Shown piece by piece: positions 1,390-22,117 of a stretch of DNA of 42,590 bases. Every line of letters begins with the position of its first letter. The first letter of the stretch is position 1. The notes beneath the pieces were generated by a model that was given only the letters and a program-made list of their open reading frames with translations, had not been told where the DNA came from and made no database searches. The position numbers and the translations under genes are program-made. The DNA comes from Physocladia obscura (taxonomy: Eukaryota; Chytridiomycota; Chytridiomycetes; Chytridiales; Chytriomycetaceae), in assembly GCA_027596945.1 (NCBI GenBank), contig JADGJH010000019.1, positions 1-42,590 on the forward strand, read 5' to 3'.

Positions 1390-4275
1390 CTATTTAAATT
1401 GTGCATCCACATGTTTTTGCGCATAATACGATGCAACAATTGTGACAACTGTAAGCGCAATGCCAACTCCAATCTGCATTCCTTGATATTGCGGTGAAGA
1501 TGACAGAAATGTTCGAATTCGCTGTTCTGTAGAATTGAATCTTTGCAAAAAGTAAGTCATTAAACACATATACTCACAAAATACTGAATAGAGAGAAAAA
1601 AAAAAAAGAGAAAAAAACGAGTCAAATTCTCACCCACTCTGCACCCACGTCGCGCCCGTCGCGTTAACAACAACAAATTTGCCACTACTATAGTCCATTT
1701 CAAGACCCGTGCCGTATGCAAAATGTGGATTAGTCTGCGACCACACACAGTCGTTTGTAATGCAATTTGCACTTGCATCTGTACACGACGGAGAAGACTG
1801 TGTGCTATCACAGGCATTGTGTTCTCGTTTGGCTGCAGTGTAGTTTGCAAGGAGGTTATACATGATGTATGGCGGCACAGTCGTGAATGCTTGCTGAGAA
1901 AATACTGACGGTTGGGATGAAACATATGGAATTGTTTGATCTTGAGTGTGTGTGTGTGTGTGTGTGTGTTGAGGGTTCAAGTTTTTTTGTTTTTTTTTGT
2001 TATTTTTTTGGTAGTCTTGTTTTTTTGGGACTAGTACCTGGATAGATTGAATGTATTAATGAACATGTCGCATTTTTTGTGAAGCATGTGAAAAGTTCTT
2101 CAACAAGTGTACAATTTGCTGTGAATTGTGCCGCATCAGCGGCACTTCCTCCCGCAAGTTGAAAAACTGATCTTGCTGTCCGAGTCGCAACGCCACACAT
2201 TAACGCAATATTTTCAGATGTGACTTGAGATCCATCGTCAAAAATTGAGTTGTAATATCTATGTAACAAAAAAAATAAACACAAATAAATTTAGGGGATT
2301 AAAAAAATATATACATAAAAACTTACGGATTTGAAAACTCATCCTTAAAATCACCCAGAAAAACCGTCGGGATTTTCTTTTTTTTCAAAAATGCCATCGC
2401 CGATGCCGGTGGCAATCGGTTATTCCCAACATTCGAATTCGTACCACTGAAAGCCGGATTAAACAAAATAGTTGAGTTTCCAATGCCTCCATTATTTGCA
2501 ACAGTCACATTTCCACTCAAAATATTGACAAGTGCTTGCGTCTCCGCATCAGTCGCATCGTCTACATGCAGGAAAATCTCGTTATTGCTTCCTCCTCCAC
2601 TATTACTCATTCCAAATCCACCAACTTGCCCAATTTCAACAATATGGCTAATTCGATCGAATCCAATGCTGGCAAATCCGTCTGTGATTTGGCATGGATT
2701 TTGGCAAAATGGATTTTCGTATGCGCATGAACTTGTTGTCATGCTGGAGGCTGTTGGTTGTTGGAGGCAGGTGAAAGGCGTCGATATGTCCTTAACAAAA
2801 CGCTGGGAACCAGCAAAACCGAAATGCTCGCTGGAAAATAATGCAAATATGATATCATTTGGTAATGATGTTACTGCGCTATGGTTCTGTAGTGGAGTAT
2901 ATAATTTTTAAAACCACTTTTATCCAAATTGCAATAAATTCAAAACCTTTGAAAGCGCCTCAGCAGCGGCTAATACGGATACACATCCAGCCATCACTGT
3001 AGCAGCAGAATTTGTGAACTCATAAAAAAAGCCGTTCCCGTCAGCTTGAGCAATCAAAAAGACAATATTTTTTGTGTCCTCAATGGACATATTGTACGAG
3101 AATGTGCCCCATACCGAAGATGCTCCGATTGGAGAACACCATCCTTTTTATTATTATCAATATTATTGTCTTTTTTTTTAATTAATCAATTGGGATTAAC
3201 CTCTTCGAAGGCAGGTCTCGGAATCGATGGATCCGTACATGAATTCGTTCAACTCAATTGAATATAGAGGATATTGGGTATATCCGCGCTCAAGGTTGTA
3301 ATTAGCAGTCTTTTATTTCATTGTTATTTTTGAAATATTCTGTTGACAATTGTTTTCACACAGTTTTTGACTACAAACATACCTCAATTAGAGTGCCAAT
3401 AGCTTGTGGCCAAGACAAATCATTCGGATTAACAGGCATGACAAAGACTGGAAAATGAAACTGTCGATGCAATAAACCACTCCCCTAATTTTTAATTACT
3501 TTACTGAGTTCGATAATTTTTTTCACTAAATTCGTTAACATGCACAGCTTAGTATCTTAACGACTCGCATTACTCGCTGTTGCAACTTGCTACACCACCC
3601 GTGATGCACTGGGGGAAAAAAAGTAAATACATTGGGGTTCCAGACATGGATGGGTGAATCGGAGGAATTAGCGTAGAGTGAGAATTGCCAGTTTGGAAAG
3701 GGATCGTCGGGTGAGTCAAACGCAGGAATGGGAAATGAAGAAGAATAGTTCTGGACAAGAATAATTCCAGCAATTTTGTTTGAAGCTTCGAGCGCGTCAA
3801 CAACAGAGCTGGAAATAAGTGGTTACGGAATGAAATAAAAAAATTTGAAGGAGGCCAAGACTCACGCTGTGAACATTGTAAATGGAAGTACAACGGCGAA
3901 CGAGACAAAGGCAGGTGAGAAGGCAAGAAAAGCAGTGAGGTCATCTTGGGACAGGATTTGGTAAACGATACCGGCGGCATTCTTGCCTGTATTCACAAGT
4001 CGAGTGATAATAGGAATGACAGCAGCGGCAGCGGAATTAGCGCAACGCAAATTCAAGTAAATAGCAACAATCGAAGAAAAGATGTCGGGCCAGTGAGAAG
4101 GGATGGATAAAACAAGCACAAGCACACACATACCAGTCGGACCAGTGACAGCGGATGCGTTCAGCAGACGCAGGGCACCATATGATTCGATCTGCTGGTA
4201 GATGCCGCCTTCAATATAAGTGTTCTGGGCGCACGCAAGCAGGGCCAGTATTAAGGTGAGTATTAGTTGTTTCAT
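1390..4275 (-). CDS. NCSTN: Nicastrin, gamma-secretase subunit
   Basis: Ten exons, read on the minus strand: 4275-4134, 3986-3866, 3808-3631, 3484-3383, 3288-3201, 3143-2947, 2886-2327, 2258-2038, 1940-1634, 1540-1390. They join in frame with GT-AG introns to 688 aa; human nicastrin is about 709 aa. A signal peptide (MKQLILTLILALLACAQ) begins at the chosen ATG. Landmarks are an ALRLLNA block near the N terminus, ETCLRR, a large peptidase-like ectodomain, the block SSEHFGFAGSQR where animals have GETFDYIGSSR (the Glu is kept, DYIGS becomes GFAGS), the PTVFLGDF...YYNSIFDD block, many N-x-S/T sites, and one C-terminal membrane helix near QIGVGIALTVVTIVASYY with a short cytosolic tail. In known complexes nicastrin gates substrates for presenilin in the endomembrane system; a presenilin gene lies 15 kb away. 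Intron 1 (3987-4133) is a multiple of three and open, so its retention cannot be excluded. Confidence 0.88.
1950..1970. repeat. (TG)n microsatellite in a nicastrin intron
   Basis: About ten TG dinucleotides on the plus strand (CA on the coding strand), just upstream of the 3' splice site of the last-but-one nicastrin intron. In the transcript this is a CA repeat next to a CTCAAG acceptor. Its length is likely to vary between strains. Confidence 0.9.
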
Positions 4276-17853: not shown

Positions 17854-19425
17854 ATGACTTCACTTAAAACTCCCGATACTCCGAAAGGCCGAAAATGGAC
17901 TGCTCAAGAAATAAACCAATCGGGTTTAACTCCATTGGAAGCCAGCAAGTTACTGGTATATACTCTTCCGCCGAATGTCGATCCAACAAAAATGCAACTT
18001 GCATATGGACGTAGAGCGATTCCGAAACTGGTTTGTTGGACTTTAACAATTTATGCCTTACTTTATATATGTAAAATTTATCAGGTCACTGAAATACCGG
18101 AAGGAAGCCTACAGCATCAACAAAAGTCCCTCGTGTTTCTTGCAGAACTGTTGCATAATCCGCTCAATATTTCGCAAGCACTGAAAAGAGGTTTTTTAAA
18201 AAAATAAGTGCTAAAGTTTTATTTTCAGAAAATTTTTGTAGATATTGTGAAACTTCTCCTTGAATTGAAAAGTTCGTTAGATTTAACAATCAAGCAAAAA
18301 ACGACAGAATGCTTATCTATTTTATCAAGTTAAGTTTTTGCAACATTCTTCGATTGAAAAATGCTTAATTTTAGATTTAGATCATGCTGTTGGGCGAGCT
18401 GAATTAATTAAACACGACACCTTACATGCATTGCTACCTTTGGTAGGTGGTCTTTTGCCAAAAGATTCTTTTAAGAAGTTTATTTATAGATTCTTGATCC
18501 TTGTGACTTGTCTCGCAGCAACGTGTTAAAAGTATTTGTTAACGTAACAAGTCAAGACGCAGGCAAAATATTAACAAAAAAAGAACCACACAAATAACTA
18601 ACTTGATGTAAAAAGGTGTAAAAAATTTTCTTCAATTCAATCTTTTGCCGCATTTGGTCAAAAGGCTTCCAGAAGAGCGTATGGATATCCAAATAATGAT
18701 TCTCGATACTCTATACAACTGCATCCGCCTTGGACGTGCTCCATACATTCCAGACGAGCCAATTAAGTGCGATGCAATGGGTGCGTTCACGCAAATTCTG
18801 AAGAATGAATCAGTTGCCGAAACGAAAGTGGCAGCCTCAAAATGTATTATGATGCTGAGGTATAAAAAAAATAATCTCTGACTTCCCGAAATAATAATTT
18901 TTAAAAACAAATGAAAGTTTCCACAAAATCTGCAAAACACTCGCATGTCAAGGCGAAACGACTAGCATTCTTATTTCAATGTTGAGTGATCGCAAGAGTG
19001 CCGTGCGTGCCGCAGCAGCTGGAGCACTTATGTCAATTACCATTGATGTTGAAGCGAAAAAGATGTTTGTTCGCGACGACGCCGTAAGCACCCTGATGGA
19101 ACTTTTAGGGGACGCAAATGAATCAGTGATATTGAACGTGATAAAGGTTTTCCTCTTTTATTGTTATTTCATTAAATGGTCTGAAGCTACTGTGTCACTT
19201 CAAGGTCATCACAAATGTTGCTGAGGATTATCGCGGACGATTTGAGCTTCACGCATGTGTCAAAAAGGTGATTAAACCTTGTTTTTAATGTTTTTTCGTT
19301 TTTTGTTTTTTTTAAGGTTTGGTAAATCAAACAACTAGCTGGAGAACTTTGCTAACAATTCAAAAAACGTCCATTTACGAGAAGTAGCAAAACGAGCAAT
19401 ACAAGTTATTACTTGGCGTCCATGA
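17854..19425 (+). CDS. RSPH14: Radial spoke head protein 14-like (armadillo repeats)
   Basis: Nine exons: 17854-18030, 18085-18190, 18242-18328, 18375-18442, 18490-18562, 18616-18859, 18918-19146, 19205-19267, 19339-19425. They give 377 aa; human RSPH14/RTDR1 is about 350 aa. The N-terminal block NVDPTKMQLAYGRRAIPKL, repeated armadillo-type helices and the terminus AIQVITWRP match this family as I remember it. The protein is an axonemal radial-spoke component of motile flagella. Intron 18563-18615 only keeps the frame if it starts with GC after CAG (GC-AG class); every GT donor nearby leads to a stop. Introns 18031-18084 and others are about 45-70 nt. The first in-frame ATG was used. Confidence 0.82.
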
Positions 19426-19587: not shown

Positions 19588-22117
19588 TCAGACATATATC
19601 ATACCGCTGCCCCCCTTCATTCCAACCAAAAGCCAGCTAGTCGCAGAACTATTCCATACACTTGGAAACTGTGGCATTGTTATCAAGTTGTTGATAAATG
19701 GAACAAGAATAAGCCCTGTTGTAAAATAAAAGAGCAAGCCAAATGCGATTGAAAATGGAAGTGCTGGAAGAGCCTTTTGCCAAATTACAAGCAAAAAAAT
19801 GGTAAAATTAAGCCCTGTTAGAAGTGCAATTGTCACCGCCATTGTTGGTACCCAATCCAGAAGTGCTGTATACACAACATAGTTAAGAGCATAAAGAATA
19901 AATTCATTGTTACTAACCTGCTCGTGATGCTAAAACGCTATAGAAAACAAAATCGCCTAACCCAAGCTTCATTCCGCCTTGATCATCCTCGTCATCATCA
20001 TCATGATTATCTTCTTCTTCGCCCTCATTATTGTTGACTGTTGGCGGATTGCTTCTACGCAGATTTTCTTCATCCATTCCTGCAAATACTTGTGACTGAG
20101 ATGCTTGTATGCTCTCAGCTTTGGAATTGCTTGGAAGAAGTTGCAGCTCGGTATCGTTGGATCGCTTTGGATTAGCTGACCACTGTAATGGTTGCTTTTG
20201 TTGTTGGCGGTTTGTATCAGGTGCAGCCATCATTGTTGTTGGGCCGGCTAACAAAAAAATTTGGTTAGAAAATAATAAATAAATTAAAATAAAATAAAAA
20301 ATCAAATAGATACCCGAATACAAAAGAGCAGGGATTTCTCGATTTTGCTTTTTTGATGTTTCAATAAGTAGGCGTAATGGCCCATATGGACACAGGACAG
20401 CAATTAAATCTTGAAGAAATGAGTGAACTTATTATTTTCTTTTTTAAAAGTAGCATTTACCCCAAACAGCCAACATTGCCAACAATATCCAGCTTGTTAT
20501 TGGAGGTATTGACGAGTTTGTCAACATATACGCCTGCACCAATAGCAATTAATCAGTTGTGCCATTTAGAAATAATTATTTCGCAGCTATTAGCTTCCTT
20601 ATTGCCTTTTATTTGATATACTCGTTTTTTAATGTTTTTAACATATTGTGTCTATGTCTGATATTATTCGCTGTTTGAGGTGAAATATTTACCATCATAC
20701 TGCTCATGAGAACCATATAAACTTGCTGTAGCCAAAGGGGACCTTTCCAAAACACAGCAACTATACCAACTGCTGCAAAATTCCAAATAAAAAAGGCAAA
20801 TGAAATATAATCTAGCGGCGCGTAGTTCATCCAAAGAAGGGTAACGCTTATGTAGTAACCAAAAAGGCCAAGTACACCTAGAATAATAGTACCAAAGATG
20901 CCGTAAAGAAGCTGGGAGTTTGAGCTCATTCAGAAAAAATATTATCAAAAATTTAAACAAATAGAACTCACTTTCATAAAATTGAAGTAAAAAAGCAGAA
21001 AAATTACCAAAGTTGCCCCAATGACTGAGCCGAGTGTTTTTAAAGCCATCAACAGGTCAGTTTGTTGTTGCGACGACGACTCACTGTTTGGATTGACAAC
21101 AGTGTTCGATGTTGTGGATGAATTTGAGTTCTGGCCACCGTAATTAAGTGCATAAATATCAGGAGCAGGGGAATACTCAAAGCCAGAAAAGTATTGAGTA
21201 GGCGGGTCAAGCGCTTTGACCCACAGGATTGCCATGAAGATACAAGCGAGTACGGGTTTGAGAATTTTGTAAATTTGAGAAAGGTAGTATGTCAGATCAC
21301 TAATTGTGTCAGCATGTAGAGTAAAAGCCAGATGTTGTTGTTGATGCTGCTGTTGCTCTTGTTGTTCGAGTTGATTTTGATGTTGTTGTTGCTGTTGTTG
21401 TTGTTGATTGCGAATAAGTGGAAACGGTGAAGATGTGGACCTTTGAGAAGACGAACCAGTTGAGCTGGTGGACGATGACGTTGCAACTGTGTCGCTACTG
21501 GCACGATAGAATACACTTCCACTGCCGATACTTTTGCTGTTGTTAACACTGTTTTTAATGGTGCTTTTGCTATTATTGTTACTGTTGGTCGTGGAGGCAT
21601 GAACACGCTTATGAACAGACCAGTGGGTGCGTTGACAAGTTTCGGAACAGTATTTCGCGGCATCTGTACTGATGCCAACAACAAGACCGGCATTTCCATT
21701 GTTATTGGCGTTAGTCGCGTTATCAGTGGTGGCTAAAACTGCAGCAGCTGCGGTGGTTGCGACCGATGAAGACACTGCTGATGACGATTTGGCACACAAT
21801 GAACAAACAAACAGTGCCCGCTTTCCGCATGCGTAACACCGCAGTCCTTCATCAATATCAGCGTCAGTACTGCCATCAGCATTCATAAACTGCCGTGGGT
21901 CTTGTTGTTGCGACTGCTTGCGTTGCTGATTTTCTTTCTTGGCTTCAGGGCTATTTACACTACCAATGTGATCCCGATCAGCCGCAGCCTCGGTATCGAT
22001 TTTCATGCTGGTTCTGATGCTTGCGTTTTTGTTGCTATTGGCAATGTTATTCACATTTGCGGTAATGATCGTGTTCCCTTGTATGCTCTTGGCATCAGTA
22101 TCTTCAGTGGTTTCCAT
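19588..22117 (-). CDS. PSEN: Presenilin with N-terminal MYND zinc finger
   Basis: Six exons (22117-20972, 20911-20693, 20533-20461, 20409-20314, 20247-19918, 19865-19588) give 713 aa; human PSEN1 is 467. Residues 94-173 hold a MYND-type finger: CYAC at 94-97, CSLC at 105-108, a 48-residue Ala/Asn-rich insert, then YCSETCQ and HWSVHKRVH, with the final ligand His instead of Cys. A Ser/Asn and poly-Gln linker leads to the first membrane helix (about 284-303, LKPVLACIFMAILWVKAL). Catalytic motifs are AVWDLIAVLCP (Asp480; animals have YD), GLGDFVFYSVL (Asp610) and KALPALPFSIAFG (PAL 655-657). An acidic loop (EEEDNHDDDDEDD) precedes GLGD. It is the aspartyl protease core of gamma-secretase in endomembranes. 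No in-frame ATG lies between the finger and TM1, which supports a true fusion. Confidence 0.92.
21337..21405 (-). repeat. CAA/CAG repeat encoding poly-Gln linker
   Basis: TTG-rich on the plus strand, so CAA/CAG on the coding strand. It encodes the Gln/His-rich spacer at about residues 238-262 between the MYND finger and the first transmembrane helix of presenilin. It is likely to vary in length. Confidence 0.85.

Follow-up and report, generated by a model that had tools for sequence, protein, structure and literature searches.

The window analysed here, 42,590 nucleotides of contig JADGJH010000019.1 from the chytrid Physocladia obscura, carries on its minus strand (22117-19588) a six-exon gene predicted to encode a presenilin of 713 amino acids, in which a MYND-type zinc finger precedes the membrane domain. 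This MYND-presenilin appears, from sequence comparison, to be an old and conserved presenilin variant that is undescribed in the literature searched, and whose function we infer below.

A presenilin gene with an N-terminal MYND finger

The frame is closed by a stop codon, and its five introns, every one GT..AG, measure 60, 159, 51, 66 and 52 bases. This is a splice prediction, with borders that we chose by hand on the sequence alone (Table 1). The Pfam presenilin profile (PF01080) matches residues 277-679 with 342.1 bits against a cut-off of 34.3 (E 5.3e-102). In an alignment with human PS1, the predicted catalytic aspartates, D480 in transmembrane helix (TM) 6 and D610 in TM7, fall on its YD and GLGD motifs; GLGD occupies residues 607-610 and PALP residues 655-658.

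A first-pass annotation had proposed that one uninterrupted exon holds both the finger and the first presenilin helices, with GLGD and PAL in later exons. The open frame and the splice model bear this out, GLGD falling in exon 5 and PALP in exon 6, and both the zf-MYND and the PF01080 matches lie in the same 713-residue frame. Exon 1 alone scores 22.9 bits against zf-MYND and 25.1 bits against the start of the presenilin profile, the latter below its cut-off. The annotation was also right that the first methionine after the finger is already within TM1: methionines stand at positions 1, 38 and 78, and the next is Met295, inside that helix. The sequence consequently offers no ATG start between the finger and the membrane.

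The top database match is the NCBI entry for the gene itself, 'Presenilin-2 [Physocladia obscura]' (P0001, 701 amino acids), from which 12 TM2 residues, VIFLLFYFNFMK (window 20972-21007), have been spliced out. We prefer the 713-residue model because relatives such as P0002, from Obelidium, retain residues matching VIFLLFYFNFMK, and the donor site in the public annotation is therefore likely to be wrong. In the AlphaFold 2 (AF2) model of P0002 we assigned nine helices to the membrane.

The finger and the linker

The finger consists of a C4 half (residues 94-108), a loop of 47 residues (109-155) and a C2-H-H half (156-173). Tested against the MYND pattern C-x2-C, C-x2-C, C-x3-C, H-x3-C, the presumed ligands by position are C94, C97, C105, C108, C157, C161, H169 and H173. 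All eight places are thus Cys or His, and the eighth is His173 instead of the usual Cys. Against the Pfam zf-MYND cut-off of 22.7 bits (PF01753), a 97-residue finger piece scores 26.5 bits, rising to 35.6 once most of the inner loop is removed, while the entire 713-residue protein scores 21.9 bits, slightly below the cut-off. The loop holds 47 residues, compared with 3-22 at the same position in 71 listed relatives, and AF2 block means in its middle are 46-48. It also contains two in-frame GT..AG stretches of 105 and 117 bases, with GTC donors unlike those of the gene's five introns. An intron within the loop is possible; if it were spliced, the two finger halves would still be joined in frame.

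The P0002 model gives the finger block means of 88-94 in the predicted local distance difference test (pLDDT), and the linker between finger and TM1 low values. The model predicts a confidently folded finger, then a low-confidence and probably flexible linker, ahead of a nine-helix presenilin. In structure comparison with Foldseek the best matches of the finger, all weak, were MYND-class fingers, those of ETO, MetAP1, ZMYND8, ZMYND10, BS69 and DEAF-1.

Table 1. Features predicted in the window, with positions counted from its first letter
Feature	Position	Strand	Content	Basis
Exon 1	20972..22117	minus	382 codons; N-terminal tail, MYND finger, linker, TM1, TM2	Open frame and splice site
MYND-type zinc finger	21599..21838	minus	Residues 94-173	
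Low-complexity loop within finger	21653..21793	minus	Residues 109-155, 47 residues	
Linker between finger and TM1	21290..21598	minus	Residues 174-276, no Met	Met list; 14.5% identity among relatives
Exon 2	20693..20911	minus	TM3-TM5 region	Splice model, presenilin profile
Exon 3	20461..20533	minus	End of TM5 to TM6; first base of Asp 480 codon	Splice model
Exon 4	20314..20409	minus	Remainder of Asp 480 codon and LIAVLCPYGPLR	Splice model, alignment to human PS1
Exon 5	19918..20247	minus	Acidic TM6-TM7 loop, GLGD (Asp 610)	Splice model, alignment to human PS1
Exon 6	19588..19865	minus	TM8-TM9, PALP, stop codon	Splice model, alignment to human PS1
Nicastrin	~2326-3834	minus	Large lobe (PF05450), small lobe (PF18266)	Profile matches

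Distribution among fungi and an aphelid

Two homolog searches, one with the window presenilin (863 matches) and one with a Basidiobolus presenilin, P0069 (600 matches), were pooled from the best 120 matches of each into 149 distinct proteins, the window's own product included; all counts given here are confined to these listed matches. By the ligand pattern, 91 of the 149 have a full finger and a further nine a half or nearly full one. Five more half fingers were recognised by eye in late-starting or garbled gene models (P0007, P0012, P0025, P0028 and P0029). This brings the total to 105 of 149, 91 full and 14 partial, which excludes chance as the source of the finger.

Proteins with a full finger come from Chytridiomycota, Blastocladiomycota (Allomyces, Catenaria, Blastocladiella), Basidiobolus, Mucoromycotina, Mortierellomycotina, Glomeromycotina and the aphelid Amoeboaphelidium protococcarum, and the genera concerned include Mucor, Rhizopus, Mortierella and Rhizophagus as well as many chytrids. 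P. obscura itself is a member of the Chytriomycetaceae (Chytridiomycota), and NCBI places aphelids within Fungi, as Aphelidiomycota. In Sorochytrium the finger is complete but for its last ligand, and the Syncephalis gene model opens with a half finger. The first-pass annotation knew of no such architecture and suggested a search for the same order in other chytrid genomes. That order is present in many of them and widespread among the early-branching fungal presenilins listed. The P. obscura fusion is therefore not unique, and proteins of the same order are already in the databases, where they are named presenilin, presenilin-domain-containing, MYND-type or hypothetical protein.

No finger is visible in 44 of the 149. 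Ten of these have fewer than 45 residues ahead of TM1; in another 19 that stretch is long enough to hold a finger, three of them being fused or odd models in which it exceeds 380 residues; and for the remaining 15 the script gave no placement. Finger-less models in Mortierella alpina, Cladochytrium, Geranomyces and Umbelopsis have finger-bearing sisters in the same genus, which points to truncated gene models there. In Gonapodya, Amoeboaphelidium occidentale and some Spizellomycetes the tail is long but holds no finger; here the finger may genuinely have been lost, unless a first exon escaped annotation. The nematode protein P0021, the sole one examined from outside fungi and aphelids, has no finger. 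When residues 15-75 of P0069, the finger by itself, served as query in a homolog search, the single candidate was P0069.

Six gene models (P0014, P0031, P0065, P0096, P0120 and P0122) begin at a methionine just before the second CxxC, so that half a finger is left. Either their first exons were overlooked, or a second start is genuinely used.

A 2009 study, on the basis of four genomes, one of them microsporidian, reported that fungi lack presenilin (PMC2770060). In the open-licence presenilin literature searched, judged by titles and abstract openings and in part from the best of longer lists, there was no description of a MYND-presenilin.

Conservation and descent

Relatives were compared in two alignments, A1 (70 of 120 listed proteins) and A2 (33 of 120, plus the window piece). 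Over the 52 finger-bearing rows of A1, mean pairwise identity is 50.5% in the finger, 14.5% in the linker and 57.7% in TM1. The finger is thus nearly as conserved as TM1 and far more so than the linker, whose length varies from ~23 to 162 residues (72 rows).

Ahead of TM1, a motif AAQ(V/I/L)(I/L)N recurs across distant fungi, in P0011, P0014, P0015, P0034, P0074 and P0122. As a general linker motif it was rejected, being present in six of the 105 proteins with TM1 placed.

The last ligand is Cys in 82 of the 91 full fingers and His in nine, the window's own included. The His-ending fingers comprise all seven seen in clade A (P0001, P0002, P0003, P0005, P0006, P0009 and P0018), together with P0010 of clade B and P0067. 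In the trees these two clades derive from a duplication in the family: clade A contains the window gene (support of 100 in the Shimodaira-Hasegawa-like approximate likelihood ratio test, SH-aLRT), clade B contains P0008, P0010, P0025 and others, and fingers, whole or in part, occur in both. P0025 is a second P. obscura presenilin, of 515 amino acids. When it was used to search the P. obscura assembly, it found the window gene only, in four matches all on contig C19; as far as that search can see, the P0025 paralog is therefore not in the assembly searched.

A first tree, of 70 of 120 listed proteins and the window, required 19 changes of the full-finger label, truncated models being scored as none and P0017 and P0038, which do have a full finger, being mislabelled as finger-less. 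A second, quick tree used 51 presenilin domains (50 of the 149 listed proteins plus the window), left out finger and linker, and was rooted on aphelids. Here the finger label needs seven changes, and the main clades agree with fungal phylogeny. The two aphelids do not fall on one side of a branch, and several deep forks are unsettled. The finger label does not cluster more strongly than it does after shuffling, which gave as low a number of changes in 180 of 500 cases; scattered losses or truncated models would lead one to expect this. The 51-domain tree is consistent with vertical inheritance and scattered losses of the finger, and the architecture looks ancient and inherited. The simplest reading would be a single early gain, before the listed groups split, followed by scattered losses, with independent gains in separate groups as a possible alternative.

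Neighbouring genes and other gamma-secretase subunits

The gene for nicastrin, the partner of presenilin, is separated by ~16 kb from that of presenilin itself, both being on one 42.6-kb contig of a 21.8-Mb assembly, and the profiles of its large and small lobes (PF05450 and PF18266) each have their only match there. Aph-1 is encoded on contig C447 of the same genome. A search for Pen-2 gave no match in the genome even at E 10, and control genomes were likewise silent.

Tail to tail with the presenilin gene stands a HEAT/ARM-repeat gene (window 17929-19270, plus strand). A relative of it is fused to presenilin in the models P0027 and P0037 (Batrachochytrium salamandrivorans) and P0105 (Polyrhizophydium). 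This neighbourhood looks conserved, with a seemingly different orientation.

Proposed role and its alternatives

We propose that the N-terminal MYND finger of fungal presenilin binds PxLxP-like motifs of a cytosolic partner and would thereby be likely to position gamma-secretase, a reading to which we give about even chances. The presenilin N terminus is cytosolic in animals. In the mechanism proposed, the finger would bind zinc, sit on the cytosolic side of the membrane and capture a short proline-leucine (PxLxP-like) motif of a cytosolic partner; binding would then tether gamma-secretase and affect where the enzyme cuts. A linker of such variable length and low pLDDT fits a tether.

The evidence for a ligand of this kind comes from the peptide-contact positions. 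If BS69 is matched by spacing and sequence, the places presumed equivalent to its Y532, Y540, Q546 and W550 are, across the 91 full fingers, aromatic in 87, Tyr in 90, and Gln and Trp in all 91, and the pattern used to find fingers constrains the Y540 place, leaving the other three free. The window residues at these places are F103, Y156, Q162 and W166. In the BS69-EBNA2 crystal structure, Y532, C534, Y540, Q546, W550, C558 and R560 contact the PxLxP peptide, and the Q546A substitution reduces peptide affinity (PMC4742278). For DEAF-1, Met512, Glu514, Thr516, Gln529 and Trp533 are reported to be important (PMC3555993); in our alignments Gln529 and Trp533 correspond to the same two finger positions as the Gln and Trp of BS69.

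Several observations count against this proposal. The place of BS69 R560 is not conserved in the 91 full fingers, and just two of the five DEAF-1 residues are kept, Met512, Glu514 and Thr516 aligning with L102, V104 and S106. The Gln and Trp are present in SMYD3 and other MYND fingers too, so those two positions alone are no proof of a PxLxP ligand. The structural matches of the finger are also weak throughout.

An unlikely alternative is that the finger is a structural module for gamma-secretase assembly or stability, which binds another subunit or the presenilin loop instead of an outside partner. Its presence in most of the listed proteins would suit such a module, as would the nicastrin and Aph-1 genes in the same genome. 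However, the variable, low-pLDDT linker suits a tether better than a fixed contact, and animal and plant complexes function without a finger. Moreover, P.L.P was found anywhere in the sequence in just 29 of 120 listed proteins, and nowhere in the window protein.

Less probable still is a C6H2 finger like that of MetAP1, in contact with the ribosome, RNA or a zinc chaperone and acting, for instance, on nascent membrane proteins. The His that ends the window finger and eight others is also the last ligand of MetAP1, and MetAP1-ZNG and yeast Map1 rank second and fifth among the structural matches. The Pfam zf-C6H2 profile (PF15801) gives weak matches of 17.1 to 28.8 bits, which miss its cut-off of 30 in every piece tested. 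Set against this, the fingers ending in Cys, like ordinary MYND, make up the great majority, and zf-MYND outscores zf-C6H2 in four of four pieces.

We regard it as slightly more improbable again that an old fusion left the finger behind as a passive relic, tolerated and functionless. Several lineages show no finger, and the window finger tolerates its long loop. Yet identity in the finger is far above that in the adjoining linker, and where the last Cys was lost it has been replaced by His, a possible metal ligand. Finally, an artefact in the form of two transcripts, an assembly error or a gene-model error deserves hardly any credence, despite a gene model built from sequence alone and some relatives whose models start at a methionine inside the finger or have no finger (a second start being possible in them), since the same order recurs in many other genomes, which makes misassembly very unlikely, and since the exon is open throughout, with no methionine between residues 78 and 295.

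The preferred reading remains that the finger docks a partner protein. The N-terminal fragment of presenilin contains TM1-6, and the earlier idea that the finger might be released with that fragment is therefore unlikely, as the fragment would stay membrane-bound. There are precedents for control of location. In two reports, the animal PSEN2 complex is sorted to late endosomes and lysosomes through a sorting motif (PMC7601421, PMC8466058), a precedent for presenilin itself controlling where the complex resides. CHB-3, which is a MYND protein, is required for the delivery of a membrane guanylyl cyclase to cilia (PMC2991246).

We tentatively suggest, with appreciably less confidence than we have in the proposal above, that the docking finger captures a PxLxP adaptor and thereby couples intramembrane cleavage to Notch-free signalling or sorting in early fungi and aphelids, where animals use short sorting motifs. 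Flagellar targeting was rejected as a general role: Mucoromycota, which are without flagella, retain the finger.

The finding is general and testable, and it points to a partner protein. Because the conserved finger belongs to a class that binds peptides and sits on the catalytic subunit, it provides a concrete handle on fungal gamma-secretase function and can be used to fish for its ligand. If the proposal is true, this would be a natural case of gamma-secretase location set by a folded domain of presenilin itself.

Comparison with known systems

Human PS1 is the top PDB match of the window protein by sequence, and of the Obelidium P0002 model by fold, and it shares with the window protein the two catalytic Asp motifs as well as PALP. 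In animal presenilins a disordered tail precedes TM1; the window protein differs from them in having a MYND-class finger at that place. The order of finger, linker and presenilin is shared with P0002 (Obelidium), P0109 (Phycomyces), P0130 (Allomyces) and P0127 (Amoeboaphelidium), in all of which the finger loop is shorter than in the window and in three of which the last ligand is Cys.

Among zinc fingers, the C6H2 finger of MetAP1 resembles that of the window in its rank as second structural match and in the His that is its last ligand, but the window finger stays below the Pfam cut-off of that family. The fingers of BS69 (ZMYND11), ETO, DEAF-1 and ZMYND8 resemble it in ligand pattern and predicted fold. 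Of the peptide contacts of BS69, the window finger keeps the aromatic residue, Tyr, Gln and Trp but lacks R560, and three of the five DEAF-1 residues are missing from it. Unlike these four, the window finger sits on a membrane protease, has His as its last ligand and accommodates a loop of 47 residues.
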